Positions 21,080 through 26,464 of a DNA stretch of 64,000 nucleotides are shown here, in pieces. The position numbers were made by a program, and so were the translations under genes. Source of the stretch: Acidiphilium sp. PA. GTDB lineage: Bacteria; Pseudomonadota; Alphaproteobacteria; Acetobacterales; Acetobacteraceae. Position 1 is the stretch's first letter, and each line of letters begins with the position of its first letter. The notes below the pieces were generated by a model, which had not been told where the DNA came from, did not search any database, and worked only from the letters and a program-made list of their open reading frames with translations. Where the stretch lies: positions 62,001-126,000 of the forward strand of contig NZ_JAIMBY010000002.1 of the NCBI RefSeq assembly GCF_026191915.1. Reading direction: 5' to 3'.

Positions 21080-22087
21080 TTATTCCGCGGTCACGAATTT
21101 GGTATCGAACAAAGAGGGTTCGGCGATTTTCTGGCTGGGTTTGATCTGGCCCTGGGTGATCATGAGCTGGCGGACCATGGTGACGTTGGTTTTGTAGGGG
21201 ATGATTTTGAGATTGCCTTTGCCGGTCATCATGTATTTCATTTCGGCGAGGCTCGGGTTGATAACCTCGGCGTATTGCGCGCGGGCATCGGCCGGCGAGA
21301 TGCCGAGGGCTTTGCCGATGATGGCGTAGGATTGGGCGGGGTGGGATTTGATGTAGGCGGTGCCTTTGAGGAAGCCCTTGATGATGGCGGGTATGGCGCC
21401 GGGGTGGGCTTTCAGGAAACTGGTTTTCACCGCGAAATTATCGGTGATCAGCCCGGGTGCCTGGGCGGAGGTGAAGAGCGCGTGGTATTTCGGGTTGGCG
21501 GTGATCAGCTGGATGTGCGGCGCCCAGGTGACGCCGGCTTCGGCGTGGCCGCCGAGCAGGGCGGCGGGGACGGCGGAGGCGGGCATGTTGGTCGGTCTGA
21601 CATCGGCCAGCGAGAGTTTCGCCTGATGCAGCGCATAGGCGAGCAGAAGCTCGGAATAGGACGTGGTGTCGAGCGGGATGGTCTTGCCCCGCAGGTCCGC
21701 GATCGCGGTGATCGATTTGCTGGCGACGATGGCATCGGCGCCGTTGGAATAGTCGATCGGCATGACGATCTTGATGTCGAAACCCTTGAGGTGGTCGCTG
21801 ATCACCTGGTTCATCGACAGATCGGCGGAATCGGCGGCGCCGGAGATGACGGCGGCGTTGATGCCGCTGTCCATGTGGACGAATTTGAGCGGGTAGGCAC
21901 CGAAGAATTTTTCCTGCGAGGCGACGAACAGCGGGGCGAAGCCGATCCACGCGCTCATCGCGAAGGTGACCGGGGTGGTGGCGGCCCGGGCGGTGCCGAG
22001 GAGCGGGGTGAGGGCGGTGGTCGCCGCGAGCAGAAGGGCGGCGGTCGTGGCGATGGTGCCGCGTTTGCGGGTCAGGATTTGTTTCAA
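21080..22087 (-). CDS. ABC transporter substrate-binding protein (NMT1/SsuA type)
   Basis: 335 residues. A cleavable signal peptide (about residues 1-35, ending TARA) exports it to the periplasm. The mature protein is a type II periplasmic binding protein of the nitrate/sulfonate/taurine/NMT1 group (FAMSAWIGFAPLFVASQEKFFG, MPIDYSNGADAIVASKSI, LRGKTIPLDTTSYSELLL, EAGVTWAPHI). It is the last gene of the guanidine-riboswitch unit, so the ligand is probably guanidine or a guanidine derivative and not a sulfonate. It lies 31 bases after the ATPase gene and just before a strong hairpin. Confidence 0.88.
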   Translation of the reverse strand: MKQILTRKRGTIATTAALLLAATTALTPLLGTARAATTPVTFAMSAWIGFAPLFVASQEKFFGAYPLKFVHMDSGINAAVISGAADSADLSMNQVISDHLKGFDIKIVMPIDYSNGADAIVASKSITAIADLRGKTIPLDTTSYSELLLAYALHQAKLSLADVRPTNMPASAVPAALLGGHAEAGVTWAPHIQLITANPKYHALFTSAQAPGLITDNFAVKTSFLKAHPGAIPAIIKGFLKGTAYIKSHPAQSYAIIGKALGISPADARAQYAEVINPSLAEMKYMMTGKGNLKIIPYKTNVTMVRQLMITQGQIKPSQKIAEPSLFDTKFVTAE

Positions 22088-22118
22088 GCAAGCCTCCGTT
22101 GGGGTTTGAGCATCCGGG

Positions 22119-22940
22119 TCATCCGGCCGGTTCGGTCAGGGATTTCAGGTCATCGAGGTCGCTGGTCATGCCGGCGGTGGCGCGGATCCGGTCGGTGATG
22201 CGGCGTTTCAGCGACAGGAAGGCGGGATCGAGCCGCAGGTCGCGATGGCGCGCGGTGAAGGGGATGTCTTCGATCGAGTCGATCCGGCCGGGGTGCGGGG
22301 CGAGGACGACGACGCGGTCGGCGAGGTAGATGGCTTCCTCGACATCGTGGGTGACGAAGATGATCGTGCGTCTTTCGGCGGATTTCACGTGCAGGATGAG
22401 GTCGTGCATCACCTCGCGGGTCTGGGCGTCGAGCGCGCCGAACGGTTCGTCCATCAGCAGGACGGCGGGCCTGGCCATCAGTGCGCGGGCGATGGCGACG
22501 CGCTGGCGCATGCCGCCGGAGAGTTGTTTGGGGTAGGCGTGTTCGACGCGCGCGAGGCCCATCAGGTTGAGCAGGGCGACGCTGCGGCGGGTGGCGTCGC
22601 CGATCTCGGCATCGGTCGCGCCCCGCGCATGGACGGCGAGGGTGCGGCAGAACCGGATGTTCTGCATCACGGTGAGCCAGGGGTAGAGGCTGTAGTCCTG
22701 AAATACCATGGTGCGGTCGCGGCCGGGGCCTGCGACCGGTTCGCCATCGATCAGGATGCGGCCGGTGCTGCGGGTCTCGAGCCCGGCGATGATGCGCAGC
22801 AGGGTGGATTTGCCGCAGCCCGAGGCGCCGACGATGGCGGTGAAACTGCCCGGCTCCAGGGCGAGATCGATCGGCGCGAGGGCCTCGAAGCCGCCGGGGA
22901 AGGTTTTGGTGATCGATTGCAGGACGACGCTTGCGGTCAT
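22119..22940 (-). CDS. ABC transporter ATP-binding protein
   Basis: 273-residue ATPase of an NMT1/Ssu/Tau-type importer. Walker A GASGCGKST, ABC signature LSGGMRQR, Walker B VLLMDEPFGALD, the D-loop and the H-loop in FVTHDVEEAIYLADR are intact. Translation starts at ATG 22940, overlapping the permease stop by four bases; upstream in-frame codons belong to a different frame of the permease gene. It energises uptake through the adjacent permease. A C-terminal extension after residue 225 (RHRDLRLDPAFLSLKRRI) is typical of this ATPase subgroup. Confidence 0.93.
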   Translation of the reverse strand: MTASVVLQSITKTFPGGFEALAPIDLALEPGSFTAIVGASGCGKSTLLRIIAGLETRSTGRILIDGEPVAGPGRDRTMVFQDYSLYPWLTVMQNIRFCRTLAVHARGATDAEIGDATRRSVALLNLMGLARVEHAYPKQLSGGMRQRVAIARALMARPAVLLMDEPFGALDAQTREVMHDLILHVKSAERRTIIFVTHDVEEAIYLADRVVVLAPHPGRIDSIEDIPFTARHRDLRLDPAFLSLKRRITDRIRATAGMTSDLDDLKSLTEPAG

Positions 22941-23791
22941 GGCAGCCAGGGGAACAGGAGTTTGTGCAGGCGGCGGAGGACCTGATCGGTGATGAGGCCG
23001 ATGATGCCGATCAGCATGATGCCGACGAAGATCTTGTCGGTCTGCAGATAGCGCTGGGCCTGCAGGATGGCGAAGCCGAGGCCGGAATTGGCGGCGATGA
23101 GTTCGGCGACGACCAGATAGGTCCAGGCGAAGCCCAGCGTGATGCGCAGCGTATCGAGCATGGCGGGCATGGCGGAGCGGAACAGGACGAGGCGGATGAT
23201 CTCGGCGTTGCTGGCGCCGAGCGTGCGGGCCGCTTCGATCTGCGCCATCGGCACGCGGGTGGTATCCTCGGAGATCATCAGGACCATCTGAAAGAACGTG
23301 CCGATCCAGATCAGGGCGATCTTGGCGGATTCGCCGAGGCCGAACCACAGCAGCACCAGCGGCACGAAGGCGACGGCCGGCAGGTAGCGCGCGAATTCCA
23401 TGATCGGCTCGAACAGGGCGCGGACCGGCTGGTAGGCGCCGATGTAGAGGCCGAGCGGCACGGCGATGACGGCGGAGAGCGCGAAACCGGCCATGACGCG
23501 CCAGACCGAGATGCCGATATCGGCCCAGAGATCGCCGCTGCGCCACCAGGCGACGAGCGCGCGCACCACGGCGAGCGGGCCGGGCAGGAACAGCGGGTTG
23601 ATGGTGCCGGCGGCGGCGATCAGGGCCCAGACGACCAGGAGGCCGAGGAAACTGGCGAGGGCGAAGCCGATGTAGCGGCCGCGGTCCATCCGCCCGCGCA
23701 CCACCCAGAGCGGCGCGCGGCGGTCCTGTGGTTCGGGGGTCGCGGCGCGCGCGGCGGGTGGCGCGCTGACGGTTTTGGCGCGTTCGGTCAT
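22937..23791 (-). CDS. ABC transporter permease (SsuC/TauC type)
   Basis: 284-residue inner-membrane permease with about six transmembrane helices. The cytoplasmic EAA loop, EAARTLGASNAEIIRLVLFRSAMP, contacts the ATPase. The 40-residue N-terminal cytoplasmic extension is rich in Ala, Pro and Arg. Start at ATG 23791 gives a four-base overlap with the upstream hydrolase gene; 47 upstream in-frame codons are rejected as read-through of that gene. With its neighbours it forms a complete importer controlled by the guanidine riboswitch. Confidence 0.92.
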   Translation of the reverse strand: MTERAKTVSAPPAARAATPEPQDRRAPLWVVRGRMDRGRYIGFALASFLGLLVVWALIAAAGTINPLFLPGPLAVVRALVAWWRSGDLWADIGISVWRVMAGFALSAVIAVPLGLYIGAYQPVRALFEPIMEFARYLPAVAFVPLVLLWFGLGESAKIALIWIGTFFQMVLMISEDTTRVPMAQIEAARTLGASNAEIIRLVLFRSAMPAMLDTLRITLGFAWTYLVVAELIAANSGLGFAILQAQRYLQTDKIFVGIMLIGIIGLITDQVLRRLHKLLFPWLP

Positions 23792-24564
23792 GCGAGGTGC
23801 TGAGGAAAACAGTCGTGCGCGCGGAAGAAATCGATGTCGTGATTGGGCCAGAGTATGGCACCGCAGGCGCAGGCGCGGGATTTCAGCGCGCGGATCGAGG
23901 CGAGGGCGAGGGTTTCGTCGTCGCGGTAGCACAGGCCGGGGGCGATTTCGTGCTCGAGGTTTTCGGTGAGGTCGGCCGCGTCGCCGCAGAGCAGGATGGG
24001 CGCGCCGTGCGGCAGTTCGATCAGCATCGACATATGGCCGGCGGTGTGGCCGGGGGTTTCGATGGCGGTGACGCCGGGGACGAGATCGTAATCGCCGTGT
24101 TGCAGGCGCCAGCGGTAGGCGGCGGAAAAATCATCGGTGAAATAGCCGCGCGCGCCGGGTTCGGCGGCCGCGGCGCGCTCGGCGGCGTGGACGTGGATAT
24201 CGGCATGGGCGAAATCATGCAGGCCGCCGGCATGGTCGAAATGCAGATGGCCGAGGAAGACGAGATCGATGTCGCGCGCATCGAGGCCGAGGGCGCCAAG
24301 GCGGGCGGGCAGGCGGTGGTCCGCCGGCATGGCGGGCGGCGGGAAGGCCAGGGCGCCGTAGCATCGATCGCGCAGAACCGGGTCGTCGATCTTGCGATAG
24401 TCGCAGCCGACGTCGTAGAGGATGCGGCCCTGGGTGGTTTCGATCAGATAGGCGAGGATCGGCGCCTCGATGATGGTGCCGGTGCCGATGTTACGGGTAG
24501 AGATCGATTTATCGTAGTGATAGATGCCGGTCAGCAGCGGCCAGAAGCGGCGCACCGCGGTCAT
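23788..24564 (-). CDS. Metallo-beta-lactamase-fold hydrolase (AHL-lactonase-like)
   Basis: 258 residues with a complete two-metal site: HLHFDHAGG (HxHxDH), GHTAGHMS, LCGDAAD and a final His in WPNHDIDFF. The closest described family is the N-acyl-homoserine-lactonase-like group, but such names say little about substrate. Its neighbours are a cysteine amidohydrolase and a guanidine riboswitch, so it more likely hydrolyses a C-N or cyclic bond in a guanidine or urea derivative. ATG 24564 overlaps the upstream stop by four bases. No signal peptide is seen; a cytoplasmic enzyme. Confidence 0.82.
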   Translation of the reverse strand: MTAVRRFWPLLTGIYHYDKSISTRNIGTGTIIEAPILAYLIETTQGRILYDVGCDYRKIDDPVLRDRCYGALAFPPPAMPADHRLPARLGALGLDARDIDLVFLGHLHFDHAGGLHDFAHADIHVHAAERAAAAEPGARGYFTDDFSAAYRWRLQHGDYDLVPGVTAIETPGHTAGHMSMLIELPHGAPILLCGDAADLTENLEHEIAPGLCYRDDETLALASIRALKSRACACGAILWPNHDIDFFRAHDCFPQHLA

Positions 24565-25202
24565 GCGAGCACCGGTTGGTCGAGCCTGGCGCAGACCGCA
24601 TCCGCCGTGATGACCGCGCCGAAGATGTTGGCTTCGCCTGCGATCAAGCCGAGCATGGCGCGCTGGATGGCGGGGTCGTGGCAGGCGGTGGCGTCGGATA
24701 TCGTGACGCACTCGTAACCGCGATCGATCGCGGATCGCAGGGTCGAGTGGACGCAGACATCGGTGGTGACGCCGGTGAGGACCAGGGTTTCGATGCGGCG
24801 GGCGCGGAGGATGTGGTCGAGGTCGGTCGCGTGGAACGCCGAGTAGCCGGGCTTGTCGATGATGATGTCACCCGGTGCGGGGGATAGTTCATCGACGATG
24901 CCGTGGCCGTATTCGCCGCGGACCAGGGCGCGGCCGAGCGGGCCGGCCGAGCCGATCGGCGCGCCGGCTTCGGTGGAGCGGCGCAGCTTGGCCGGGGTGC
25001 AATCGGCCAGATCGGCGCGGTGACCTTCGCGGGTGTAGATGATGGTGCGGCCGGCCGCGCGGAAGCGGGCGGCGAGGCGGGCGATCGGTGCGATCGGGCG
25101 GGCGAGGGCGGCAATGTCGAGCCCGGCGCGGTCGGCGTAGCCGCCCGTGCAGCAGAAATCACGTTGCATGTCGATGATGACGAGGGCGGCGTGCTGCATC
25201 AT
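24561..25202 (-). CDS. Isochorismatase-like cysteine hydrolase, biuret amidohydrolase-like
   Basis: 213 residues of the isochorismatase-like hydrolase fold with the catalytic triad D11 (VIIDMQRDF), K117 (IIIDKPGYSAF) and C150 (GVTTDVCVHS). The stretches YTREGHRADLAD and RGEYGHGIVDELSP resemble biuret amidohydrolase (BiuH) and its relatives as I remember them. Those enzymes cleave the amide bond of ureido compounds such as biuret, ureidoacrylate or N-carbamoyl amines. In a guanidine-controlled unit a carbamoyl or guanidino product is a reasonable substrate, but this is inference. It overlaps both neighbours by four bases. Confidence 0.85.
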   Translation of the reverse strand: MMQHAALVIIDMQRDFCCTGGYADRAGLDIAALARPIAPIARLAARFRAAGRTIIYTREGHRADLADCTPAKLRRSTEAGAPIGSAGPLGRALVRGEYGHGIVDELSPAPGDIIIDKPGYSAFHATDLDHILRARRIETLVLTGVTTDVCVHSTLRSAIDRGYECVTISDATACHDPAIQRAMLGLIAGEANIFGAVITADAVCARLDQPVLA

Positions 25203-26197
25203 GAGGCGGTGAGGAAGGAGACGCCGACGGCGCCGAGAAAGCCGTGGGCGCGATCGCCATCGGGCGCGACTTCGCCGTAATGCGCGGCCATGACGCGGGT
25301 GACGCGATGGCGGTGGTAGCTCGCGAGCAGGGTGCGGACCGGCAGGACCTGGGTGCGATCGTCGGCGTAGAGTTTGCGGTGCAGCCGGGCGAGGCGATAC
25401 CAGGGTTCGGCCGGGCGCGCGTGATGCGCGTTGTGATAGGCGAAATTGAGGACCAGCAGGTTGAGCCAGGGGTGGTCGGCGCTGACCACATCCGAATAGG
25501 TGTTTTGCTGTTCATAGGCGCGGTCGCGGACCAGTTCGGGCGGGGCGGCGGCGAGATCGGGCGCGTGATAGACATCGAACGTGTGCTGGAATGCGTCCTG
25601 AAAGCGCAGGATGTGCAGGAAGATGGCGTAGGCGATGGCGTAGGCCGGCAGGGCGAGCGGGGCTGCGGCGCCGAGCAGGGCGAAGGCGGCAAGGCGCAGG
25701 GCGAGCACCACGATCAGGGTGACGCGGGCGGTGCCGCCGCGCTGCCAGCGCTGGCGGATGATCAGGCCGCGCATGAGATATTCGACAGCGGGGATGTAGA
25801 GATATTCGAGCGTGAGGATCGTGCGGCGGAACCAGGCGGGGGCAGCGTGCAACGCGCCGCGATAGTCGAAACTGACGACGTCCAGCCGGTCGGCATGGTG
25901 GCGGAGATGTTTTTCCTTGAGCCCGGCATAGGGTGCGATGCAGGCGCCCGACATCCAGGCGAGCGCGCTGCCGAGACGGTCGTTGTCGCGCGTGCGGGTG
26001 AAAATCGTGCCGTGTTCGCATTCATGGATGAGATAGGCGCTGATCGCGAGCGCATGGGCAATCAGCAGAATGCCGCAGAGGAGCGCGAGCGGGTGGGGGC
26101 GCGTGATCAGCACGATGCCGCCGAGCCAGCCGGACAGCGCGTAGGCGAGGGCTGCGAGATTGCGGGCGATGCCGTCGCGGTAGCGGAACGAGATCAT
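25199..26197 (-). CDS. Fatty-acid-desaturase-type membrane di-iron enzyme
   Basis: 332 residues with several transmembrane segments and the histidine boxes of membrane di-iron desaturases and hydroxylases: HECEH (residues 58-62), HLRHH (97-101) and HNAHH (near 253-257). A further conserved-looking HILRFQDAFQHTFD lies between them. Such enzymes use O2 to hydroxylate or desaturate. It is the first long gene after the guanidine-I riboswitch and overlaps the cysteine hydrolase by four bases. This makes a lipid role doubtful and suggests oxidation of a guanidine compound or of its alkyl group. ATG 26197 is the only start available in frame. Confidence 0.82.
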   Translation of the reverse strand: MISFRYRDGIARNLAALAYALSGWLGGIVLITRPHPLALLCGILLIAHALAISAYLIHECEHGTIFTRTRDNDRLGSALAWMSGACIAPYAGLKEKHLRHHADRLDVVSFDYRGALHAAPAWFRRTILTLEYLYIPAVEYLMRGLIIRQRWQRGGTARVTLIVVLALRLAAFALLGAAAPLALPAYAIAYAIFLHILRFQDAFQHTFDVYHAPDLAAAPPELVRDRAYEQQNTYSDVVSADHPWLNLLVLNFAYHNAHHARPAEPWYRLARLHRKLYADDRTQVLPVRTLLASYHRHRVTRVMAAHYGEVAPDGDRAHGFLGAVGVSFLTAS

Positions 26198-26274
26198 GCC
26201 GACCGGCCCCGGCGGGCGGGCGCGGCCGCGCGGTGGTGATGGGTGGGGGTGGTCCTTGACGGTCGAGACATCAT
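26194..26274 (-). CDS. Possible 26-residue leader ORF
   Basis: A 26-codon frame starts at ATG-ATG (26274/26271) after a plausible AGGGTG ribosome binding site and ends in a TGA that overlaps the ATG of the desaturase-like gene (ATGA). It encodes a basic peptide with three consecutive His and many Arg and Ala. It sits between the riboswitch and the first enzyme gene, so it could couple translation to riboswitch state, or be a small metal-binding peptide. It could also be chance in GC-rich DNA. Confidence 0.3.
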   Translation of the reverse strand: MMSRPSRTTPTHHHRAAAPARRGRSA

Positions 26275-26360
26275 GCGCGGTTCACCCTGATCAAATCATC
26301 CGTCCGACATGACGCGGGGGGAACGGAACGGACAGCGAATGCGACCCCTCGCATCAAAAC
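26198..26360 (-). promoter_or_regulatory. Riboswitch expression platform and 5' leader
   Basis: The roughly 160 bases between the aptamer and the desaturase-like start hold a GATGCGA/TCGCAT hairpin just after the aptamer and a possible GTCCG...CGGAC pairing around the GTTCCGTTCC repeat. The 26-codon leader frame is also here. No intrinsic terminator is visible. Confidence 0.4.
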
Positions 26361-26464
26361 GCTCTCCCGGGCTTTTATCCCGCCGTGTACCGGGCGGATG
26401 TCTCCCGCACGGCTGCCGCTCTCGGACCAGCGTCGGGCGTTGACCCGACCGGAACCCTAGCGGC
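26361..26464 (-). ncRNA. Guanidine-I (ykkC-yxkD) riboswitch
   Basis: On the minus strand the element opens with CTAGGGTTCCGG (26460-26449). It continues with a hairpin CGGGT...CCCG and the core CTGGTCCGAGAG, and closes with ACGGCGGGATAAAAGCCC plus GGGAGAG (26386-26362). These are the highly conserved blocks of the ykkC-yxkD aptamer that binds guanidinium. It lies about 165 bases upstream of the desaturase-like gene and in line with the six-gene unit. A 6-bp hairpin with GGGG loop (ATGCGA/TCGCAT, 26339-26354) follows directly. No T-rich terminator is seen, so control may act at translation. Confidence 0.93.

Follow-up and report, generated by a model that had tools for sequence, protein, structure and literature searches.

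On a stretch of 64,000 nucleotides from the acid-loving bacterium Acidiphilium sp. PA, called the window below, a Guanidine-I riboswitch aptamer stands ahead of six genes. It seems fairly probable that this unit works as a peripheral cassette, induced by guanidine, in which guanidine is set free from some larger guanidino compound. An ATP-binding cassette (ABC) importer would take up an N-acyl, N-alkyl or cyclic guanidine, which a membrane di-iron enzyme of the fatty acid desaturase (FADS) type would oxygenate, probably at the C-H adjoining a guanidine nitrogen. An enzyme with the metallo-beta-lactamase (MBL) fold would then open or trim the oxidized product, and a cysteine hydrolase of the guanylurea-hydrolase type would cut an N-carbamoyl- or N-acyl-guanidine to guanidine. 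This guanidine is supposed to bind the aptamer and raise expression, and to be converted to ammonia and CO2 by a carboxylase pathway encoded elsewhere in the genome. As hydrolysis of the guanylurea type yields guanidine, such a scheme explains both why a guanidine sensor sits on the unit and why a carboxylase is found near it or at a distance. The parts of the unit and their order, a second aptamer with a carboxylase operon in the same genome, the repeated occurrence of FADS genes at guanidine loci and the hydrolase residues of guanylurea type are read directly from the DNA.

The aptamer (26471-26362, minus strand) is the sole Rfam match in the whole window when cmscan is run at gathering cut-offs. 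It matches Guanidine-I (ykkC-yxkD; RF00442) at 88.9 bits, the cut-off being 63 (E 1.3e-14), over model positions 1-107, which is the full length of the model. An earlier note on this DNA had described a clear ykkC-yxkD aptamer ahead of six tightly coupled genes, and this was borne out, except that the boundary given there as 26464 has to be moved to 26471. Judging from its family, the aptamer should bind guanidine and let expression respond to it. The six genes lie 3' of it on the same strand, as seen from reading frames and Pfam matches. They encode, in order, the FADS-type membrane protein with di-iron His boxes (25199..26197, 332 aa), a putative guanidino-compound hydroxylase; the isochorismatase-like cysteine hydrolase (24561..25202, Isochorismatase 155 bits); the MBL-fold metallo-hydrolase (23788..24564, Lactamase_B 57.9 bits), which falls on the AiiA/4-pyridoxolactonase side of its superfamily; and, for the importer, a TauC/SsuC-type permease (22937..23791, BPD_transp_1 89.3 bits), the ATPase (22119..22940, ABC_tran 112 bits) and an NMT1/SsuA-type substrate-binding protein (21080..22087, NMT1 61.2 bits). 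ATGA stop/start overlaps occur at four consecutive junctions, and the ATPase and binding-protein frames are separated by 31 nt, the latter starting with TTG.

For the cysteine hydrolase, the label "biuret-hydrolase-like" of the earlier note can no longer be kept. The protein reaches 253.5 of the 370 bits set by the NCBIfam equivalog model of the biuret hydrolase BiuH and so misses the cut-off, as does a biuret-type paralogue at another locus of the genome, L003 (296.8 of 370 bits). Its catalytic triad D36/K142/C175 is retained, and the biuret-binding residues are exchanged (K145Y and Q215E), the same two exchanges being present in the hydrolase of plasmid pMET-2. According to PMC5806882, Gln215 of BiuH holds the distal amide and Lys145 contacts biuret; the Q215E variant shows a rise of the Michaelis constant KM from 79 to 2528 uM, and K145 variants are effectively inactive. 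Among plasmid records, the best matches of the window hydrolase are the cysteine hydrolases of pMET-2 and of two further Pseudomonas plasmids, at 58.5% identity each, and in a tree it clusters with the pMET-2 protein (support 99/98). The isochorismatase-like BB_00025 of pMET-2 is reported to be a guanylurea hydrolase of 11 umol/min per mg (PMC9800807), and the matched gene is probably this assayed one, because no other place in the record reaches that threshold and because the neighbouring deaminase fits what PMC9800807 describes. The window hydrolase is of the guanylurea-hydrolase type, its activity being predicted from these likenesses. It is also predicted to be poor on biuret, and a carboxylate replacing Gln together with the loss of Lys would fit a cationic guanidinium substrate. 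Biuret itself was considered as the substrate and rejected in view of the exchanged K145 and Q215, the grouping with pMET-2 and the BiuH mutant data (PMC5806882). The pattern extends to other hydrolases: all 13 found in FADS clusters keep the triad and lack K145, and 11 of them have Glu at 215, the remaining two (G465 and G707) being distant, poorly aligned and without Q215E. Tyr and Glu at 145 and 215 are found in the pMET-2 protein and in a Nitrosospira protein. Both K145 and Q215 are kept in three of three paralogues outside FADS clusters, of which two sit about 9 kb from the FADS gene of genome G011, across the aptamer, and also in the other four plasmid homologues (one from Rhizobium, two from Ideonella, one from Pantoea).

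The FADS-type protein is probably the O2-dependent enzyme of the unit. PF00487 is its only Pfam match (116.6 bits, cut-off 29.7), and its three His boxes are intact (58 HECEH, 97 HLRHH, 255 HNAHH). The lipid desaturase equivalogs DesA and DesB of NCBIfam were tried and rejected as its identity, with 25.7 and 21.5 of 500 bits. A phmmer search of the PDB gave no match at E 1, and an AlphaFold model built from five sequences had a mean pLDDT of 56.5, which was too poor to be used. In the MBL enzyme the metal motifs are intact (106 HLHFDH, 172 GHTAGH). It misses the cut-off of the N-acyl homoserine lactonase equivalog AiiA (134.4 of 375 bits), and its best relatives in the PDB are lactonases. We regard it as a putative ring-opening or trimming hydrolase. 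Pfam matches and motifs thus agree with the desaturase-like membrane di-iron enzyme, MBL-fold hydrolase and ABC importer named before. The permease shows 55.6% and the ATPase 58.2% identity to its counterpart beside the pMET-2 hydrolase, and the two binding proteins share 33.8% identity over 272 aligned residues; the window binding protein is under the cut-offs of SsuA_fam (90.1 of 163.5 bits) and ABC_peri_uca (82.1 of 333.9 bits).

Where, then, would the released guanidine go? No match to the carboxylase model TIGR02712 lies in the unit; the single match in the genome (G000) at E 1e-200 is on contig C67, the window contig being C12. There, a second Guanidine-I aptamer (83.3 bits) is followed by genes for a binding protein (TIGR03427, 503.2 bits, cut-off 333.9), a permease, an ATPase, UAAP1 (208 of 205.95 bits), UAAP2 (305.6 of 284.7 bits), the carboxylase, with its parts in one frame (1642.1 bits, cut-off 1303.85), and allophanate hydrolase (722.5 bits, cut-off 511.05). 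UAAP1 and UAAP2, both DUF1989 proteins, we take to be CgdA and CgdB. From the aptamer and the neighbouring genes, the carboxylase would act on guanidine and not on urea. The cell should therefore be able to break down free guanidine even if it lacked the window unit. The two sets of genes are even joined in sister genomes. In G011, CgdA, CgdB, carboxylase, allophanate hydrolase, FADS, hydrolase, MBL, permease, ATPase and binding protein follow one another, the FADS start overlapping the end of the allophanate hydrolase gene, and the cassette genes are 77-87% identical to those of the window, gene by gene. G012, which is 83% complete and belongs, like G005, to the genus of the window genome by kinship label, has the same arrangement up to a contig end inside the permease. 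Neither G011 nor G012 has an aptamer directly before the FADS gene, and the Guanidine-I aptamer of G011 lies about 8 kb upstream of it. The gene order in the window may represent a split version of a G011-type regulon. In G005, the FADS match stops near residue 188 next to an IS6 transposase gene (203.8 of 125 bits), and this match lies behind a carboxylase operon with Guanidine-I. Because the genome has a carboxylase operon and the cassette is joined to one in G011 and G012, the unit more likely makes than consumes guanidine.

The earlier note had asked whether the gene set recurs downstream of guanidine-I riboswitches, and the FADS gene was indeed found again at other guanidine loci. Among 395 genomes of the order, the FADS clade (alignment A2, E 1e-20) is present in seven and Guanidine-I in 30, and all seven are among the 30; the hypergeometric value of 7e-9 has no correction for kinship and overstates independence, because the seven genomes represent two genera. 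The distance from FADS to Guanidine-I is 0.2 kb in the window, 7 to 13 kb in G011, G005, G173, G202 and G415, and about 30 kb in G228, and nine of the ten FADS genomes checked have a TIGR02712 carboxylase over the cut-off. In G202, G173 and G415, the FADS cluster and a Guanidine-I carboxylase operon converge, as do the FADS gene and such an operon in a metagenome-assembled genome of Bacillota (L019). The cluster consists of binding protein, FADS, MBL, permease, ATPase and hydrolase in G202; in G173 and G415, FADS is accompanied by an NtaA/DmoA-type monooxygenase (416.9 and 415.5 of 279.7 bits) and importer genes, the permease of G173 being unlabelled. In Acidocella (L018), FADS stands among three ureohydrolase-family genes, a creatininase gene (344.7 of 235 bits), two short-chain dehydrogenase/reductase (SDR) genes and an importer. 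Three neighbourhoods (L012, L013 and L033) were read by hand, outside the automatic tally. Altogether, FADS relatives near a carboxylase or aptamer occur in Acidiphilium, in Acidocella-type genomes, in one Bacillota genome and at a minority of cyanobacterial places. In a tree, the window protein groups with Acidocella-type, Bacillota and one cyanobacterial (G489) sequence, and the other 30 rows stand apart (100/100); linkage to guanidine genes is found on both sides of this split.

In cyanobacteria, FADS is present in 42 of 291 genomes. TIGR02712 is over its cut-off in 46, of which 14 also have FADS (Fisher 0.0018), and creatininase (TIGR04448 over its cut-off) in 18, of which again 14 have FADS (Fisher 4e-10, without correction for kinship or genome size). 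G639 holds, within 13 kb, genes for permease, ATPase, binding protein, FADS, creatininase (369.9 of 235 bits), hydrolase, SDR, the UAAP pair and carboxylase. In G713, FADS comes immediately ahead of the UAAP pair and carboxylase, and G445 has a cluster of hydrolase, binding protein, creatininase, SDR, MBL, FADS, ATPase and permease. Of 54 cyanobacterial FADS places 51 were tallied, leaving out G517:C21:32704, G553:C31 and G553:C7. A carbon-nitrogen hydrolase or carboxylase match lies within 8 kb at 15 of these, and a permease or binding protein only at six further places; the reference set includes proteins from L018, L021, L066, L069, L072 and L076, which match themselves. At three cyanobacterial loci (L066:11007-12842, L069:9419-11239 and L068:8056-10219), FADS lies beside a polysaccharide-deacetylase-family (PuuE-like) gene, and two of these loci also have importer and SDR genes. 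On a Gloeothece plasmid (L016:7749-14060), an FADS relative is placed beside genes annotated as ectoine synthase, GNAT, tryptophan 7-halogenase and HpaB.

How do other explanations fare against these findings? The earlier note had proposed that a guanidine is imported and then broken down through one O2-dependent and two hydrolytic steps, with no carboxylase involved. The aptamer directly ahead of the unit and the lack of a carboxylase within it speak for such a route for guanidine itself, which we nevertheless regard as quite improbable: a full carboxylase operon, equipped with a separate Guanidine-I and a separate importer, is present in the genome, the cassette stands at the end of the carboxylase operon in sister genomes, and the hydrolase matches an enzyme that yields guanidine. 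Carboxylase-free degradation was rejected on the first two grounds, and these likewise undo the argument that the route is distinct as no carboxylase is present. What survives of the proposal is the idea that some guanidine compound is handled jointly by the importer, an O2-dependent enzyme and the two hydrolases. It also seems unlikely that the FADS protein desaturates membrane lipids and owes its place in the operon to chance or to a function under stress, with only the hydrolase and importer serving guanidine metabolism. The Pfam FA_desaturase match and the many cyanobacterial relatives without guanidine genes would be in keeping with a lipid enzyme; the lipid equivalogs far under cut-off, and the recurrence of FADS beside guanidine genes in Pseudomonadota, Bacillota and Cyanobacteriota, argue against it.

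A further candidate, which we hold to be doubtful for the window, is an oxidative pathway of the creatinine (2-iminoimidazolidinone) type: FADS would hydroxylate the ring or the N-methyl carbon, creatininase, MBL or a PuuE-like enzyme would open the ring depending on the species, and the cysteine hydrolase would free guanidine or methylguanidine. Creatinine oxidized over carbon materials does give creatol and methylguanidine (PMC3775425), the one precedent that literature searches on creatinine yielded. The FADS and creatininase genes adjoin each other on the same strand in G639 (L076:9160-10943), G707 (L096:7539-9407) and G505 (L097:7081-9081), lie within 3 kb in G445 and share a cluster in G426 and G173; two weak creatininase labels (28%), one in L108 and an additional one in L097, were left out of the count. 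Together with the co-occurrence in cyanobacteria, this suggests a creatinine-like substrate in other lineages. Against it, the two genes are not near each other in the assembly in ten of the 14 co-occurring genomes (on other contigs in nine, at 41 kb in one), and genome size may confound the co-occurrence. The substrate is not simply transferable to the window genome, because TIGR04448 gives no match there at E 1e-20, nor is one found in G012 (83% complete) or G005.

This lack of a creatininase in the window genome also weighs against release of guanidine from a larger compound, and several further points do the same. The substrate, the order of steps, the reactions of the FADS and MBL enzymes and the response to guanidine are all inferred, and guanylurea itself would require no oxygenase. 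TIGR02712 cannot separate urea carboxylase from guanidine carboxylase. The partners of FADS vary from MBL and hydrolase to an NtaA-type monooxygenase, creatininase and SDR, ureohydrolases or a PuuE-like gene, and the window MBL is not close to that of the cyanobacterial locus L021, tblastn giving no match between them at 1e-4. At 30 of the 51 cyanobacterial places, the 8 kb around FADS contain no match to a permease, binding protein, carboxylase or carbon-nitrogen hydrolase from the reference set; the DNA on one side is shorter than 5 kb at 13 of the 30, and L080 has an importer ATPase, a class outside the tally. G428 has FADS, MBL and importer, and neither Guanidine-I nor carboxylase was found in it; the Gloeothece plasmid relative (34%) lies among natural-product-like genes, and its plasmid has no Guanidine-I. 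These two were the cyanobacterial sequences searched for the aptamer. Only tentatively, then, do we put forward the wider idea that the FADS-family membrane di-iron enzyme may be specialized for oxygenating guanidino compounds, its substrates probably being cyclic ones similar to creatinine or N-alkyl ones, and may form, with interchangeable ring-opening hydrolases and a guanylurea-type hydrolase, a catabolic module that occurs in three phyla, has free guanidine as its end product and in some lineages is coupled to guanidine riboswitches. If so, it would add a natural source of guanidine and a class of substrates for FADS enzymes.

A close parallel to the proposed guanidine release by the window cassette is found in Vreelandella boliviensis, in which MgdH hydroxylates methylguanidine and MgdL cleaves the hemiaminal, which proved to be unexpectedly stable (Sinn et al., 2025, PMC12508155). 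As is proposed for the window unit, an O2-dependent enzyme and a helper enzyme under riboswitch control, together with an ABC importer, free guanidine for a carboxylase, which in that organism is part of the operon; its Guanidine-I binds guanidine and, in the tested range, not methylguanidine (PMC12508155). The enzymes themselves differ: MgdH belongs to the 2-oxoglutarate/Fe(II) dioxygenases, and MgdL is a lyase whose structural model contains a beta-barrel (PMC12508155), whereas the window has FADS, MBL and a guanylurea-type hydrolase, and no Pfam family of an MgdH-like dioxygenase was matched by any of its six proteins. On pMET-2 (CP098607), genes for LysR, binding protein, nucleoside deaminase, hydrolase, permease and ATPase follow in this order; hydrolase and importer are like those of the window, while a nucleoside deaminase and a LysR regulator take the place of FADS, MBL and riboswitch. 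The guanidine carboxylase pathway (Gca, CgdA/B, AtzF) shares with the unit its genome and the use of a Guanidine-I of its own, as well as one gene run in sister genomes; it differs in consuming free guanidine, and none of its enzymes is in the unit. With BiuH (PMC5806882), the hydrolase has the fold family and catalytic triad in common, and it differs in lacking K145 and Q215 and in staying under the equivalog cut-off. Guanidine-releasing riboswitch logic is thus already known from MgdH/MgdL, and what would be new here is a riboswitch-linked cassette of this kind with an unusual oxygenase. Among the papers listed in searches of open-licence literature, none dealt with an FADS-type enzyme acting in the catabolism of guanidine. 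GntB, an enzyme of a cyanobacterial pathway, is presumably FADS-like, and its link to the window protein is a lead for now. It is the transmembrane arginine hydroxylase of that pathway (PMC10367076). Where passages of two guanidine papers (PMC12186494 and PMC11410670) speak of a desaturase, they mean NapI, which acts on arginine and for which they cite work on 2-oxoglutarate oxygenases.

Little is known of where guanidine comes from in nature, which makes it puzzling that bacteria have so many sensors for it. If the cassette works as proposed, release of guanidine inside the cell from a larger compound would explain induction by the product and point to that compound. It would also give a function to a branch of the family automatically annotated as fatty acid desaturase, and it suggests that the guanylurea hydrolase of a metformin-degrading wastewater bacterium belongs to a wider natural cassette of importer plus hydrolase.

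Some minor features surround these loci. Ahead of the aptamer is a sigma-70-like site (26601-26573, minus strand). A hairpin re-using the aptamer 3' edge (26320..26373, minus strand) appears in minimum free energy (MFE) folds, in which GGGAGAGCG pairs with CGCTGTCC around an ATGCGA/TCGCAT stem, and a hairpin of similar shape is given by MFE in all four leaders folded out of ten leaders read. Because just one of the four z-scores (-1.15, -2.46, -1.12 and +0.32) is below -2, the hairpin is a possible, weak candidate for the expression platform; a U-tract terminator was searched for in this leader and not found. Between the aptamer and the FADS gene (26194..26354, minus strand), two short overlapping reading frames, 26354-26271 (27 codons) and 26274-26194 (26 codons), may be a chance product of GC-rich DNA. 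Divergent from the carboxylase operon on C67 (L003:5692-9687) are the biuret-type hydrolase, with K145 and Q215 kept, and an AtzE-family amidohydrolase (612.5 of 425.75 bits), perhaps a cluster for biuret or ureido compounds; a long frame there (L003:6147-7946) is permease-like in look and matched no family, so that a permease label is unsupported. Rieske-type oxygenases (Pfam) are encoded near the FADS clusters of G202 and G415 (L031:17310-18545 and L032:1-1260), the L031 protein being nearest to the glycine betaine monooxygenase GbcA, far under its cut-off. In two Acidocella-type genomes, proteins of 258 and 259 aa without Pfam match (L030:15469-16245 and L018:12955-13734), alike by eye only, adjoin the FADS clusters. 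A type III glutamine synthetase (TIGR03105 over its cut-off in three of three) is encoded between Guanidine-I and CgdA in G228 (L034:5973-7340) and near guanidine or creatininase genes in G005 (L033:12953-14320) and G707 (L096:1106-2467), where it might assimilate ammonia or an amine.

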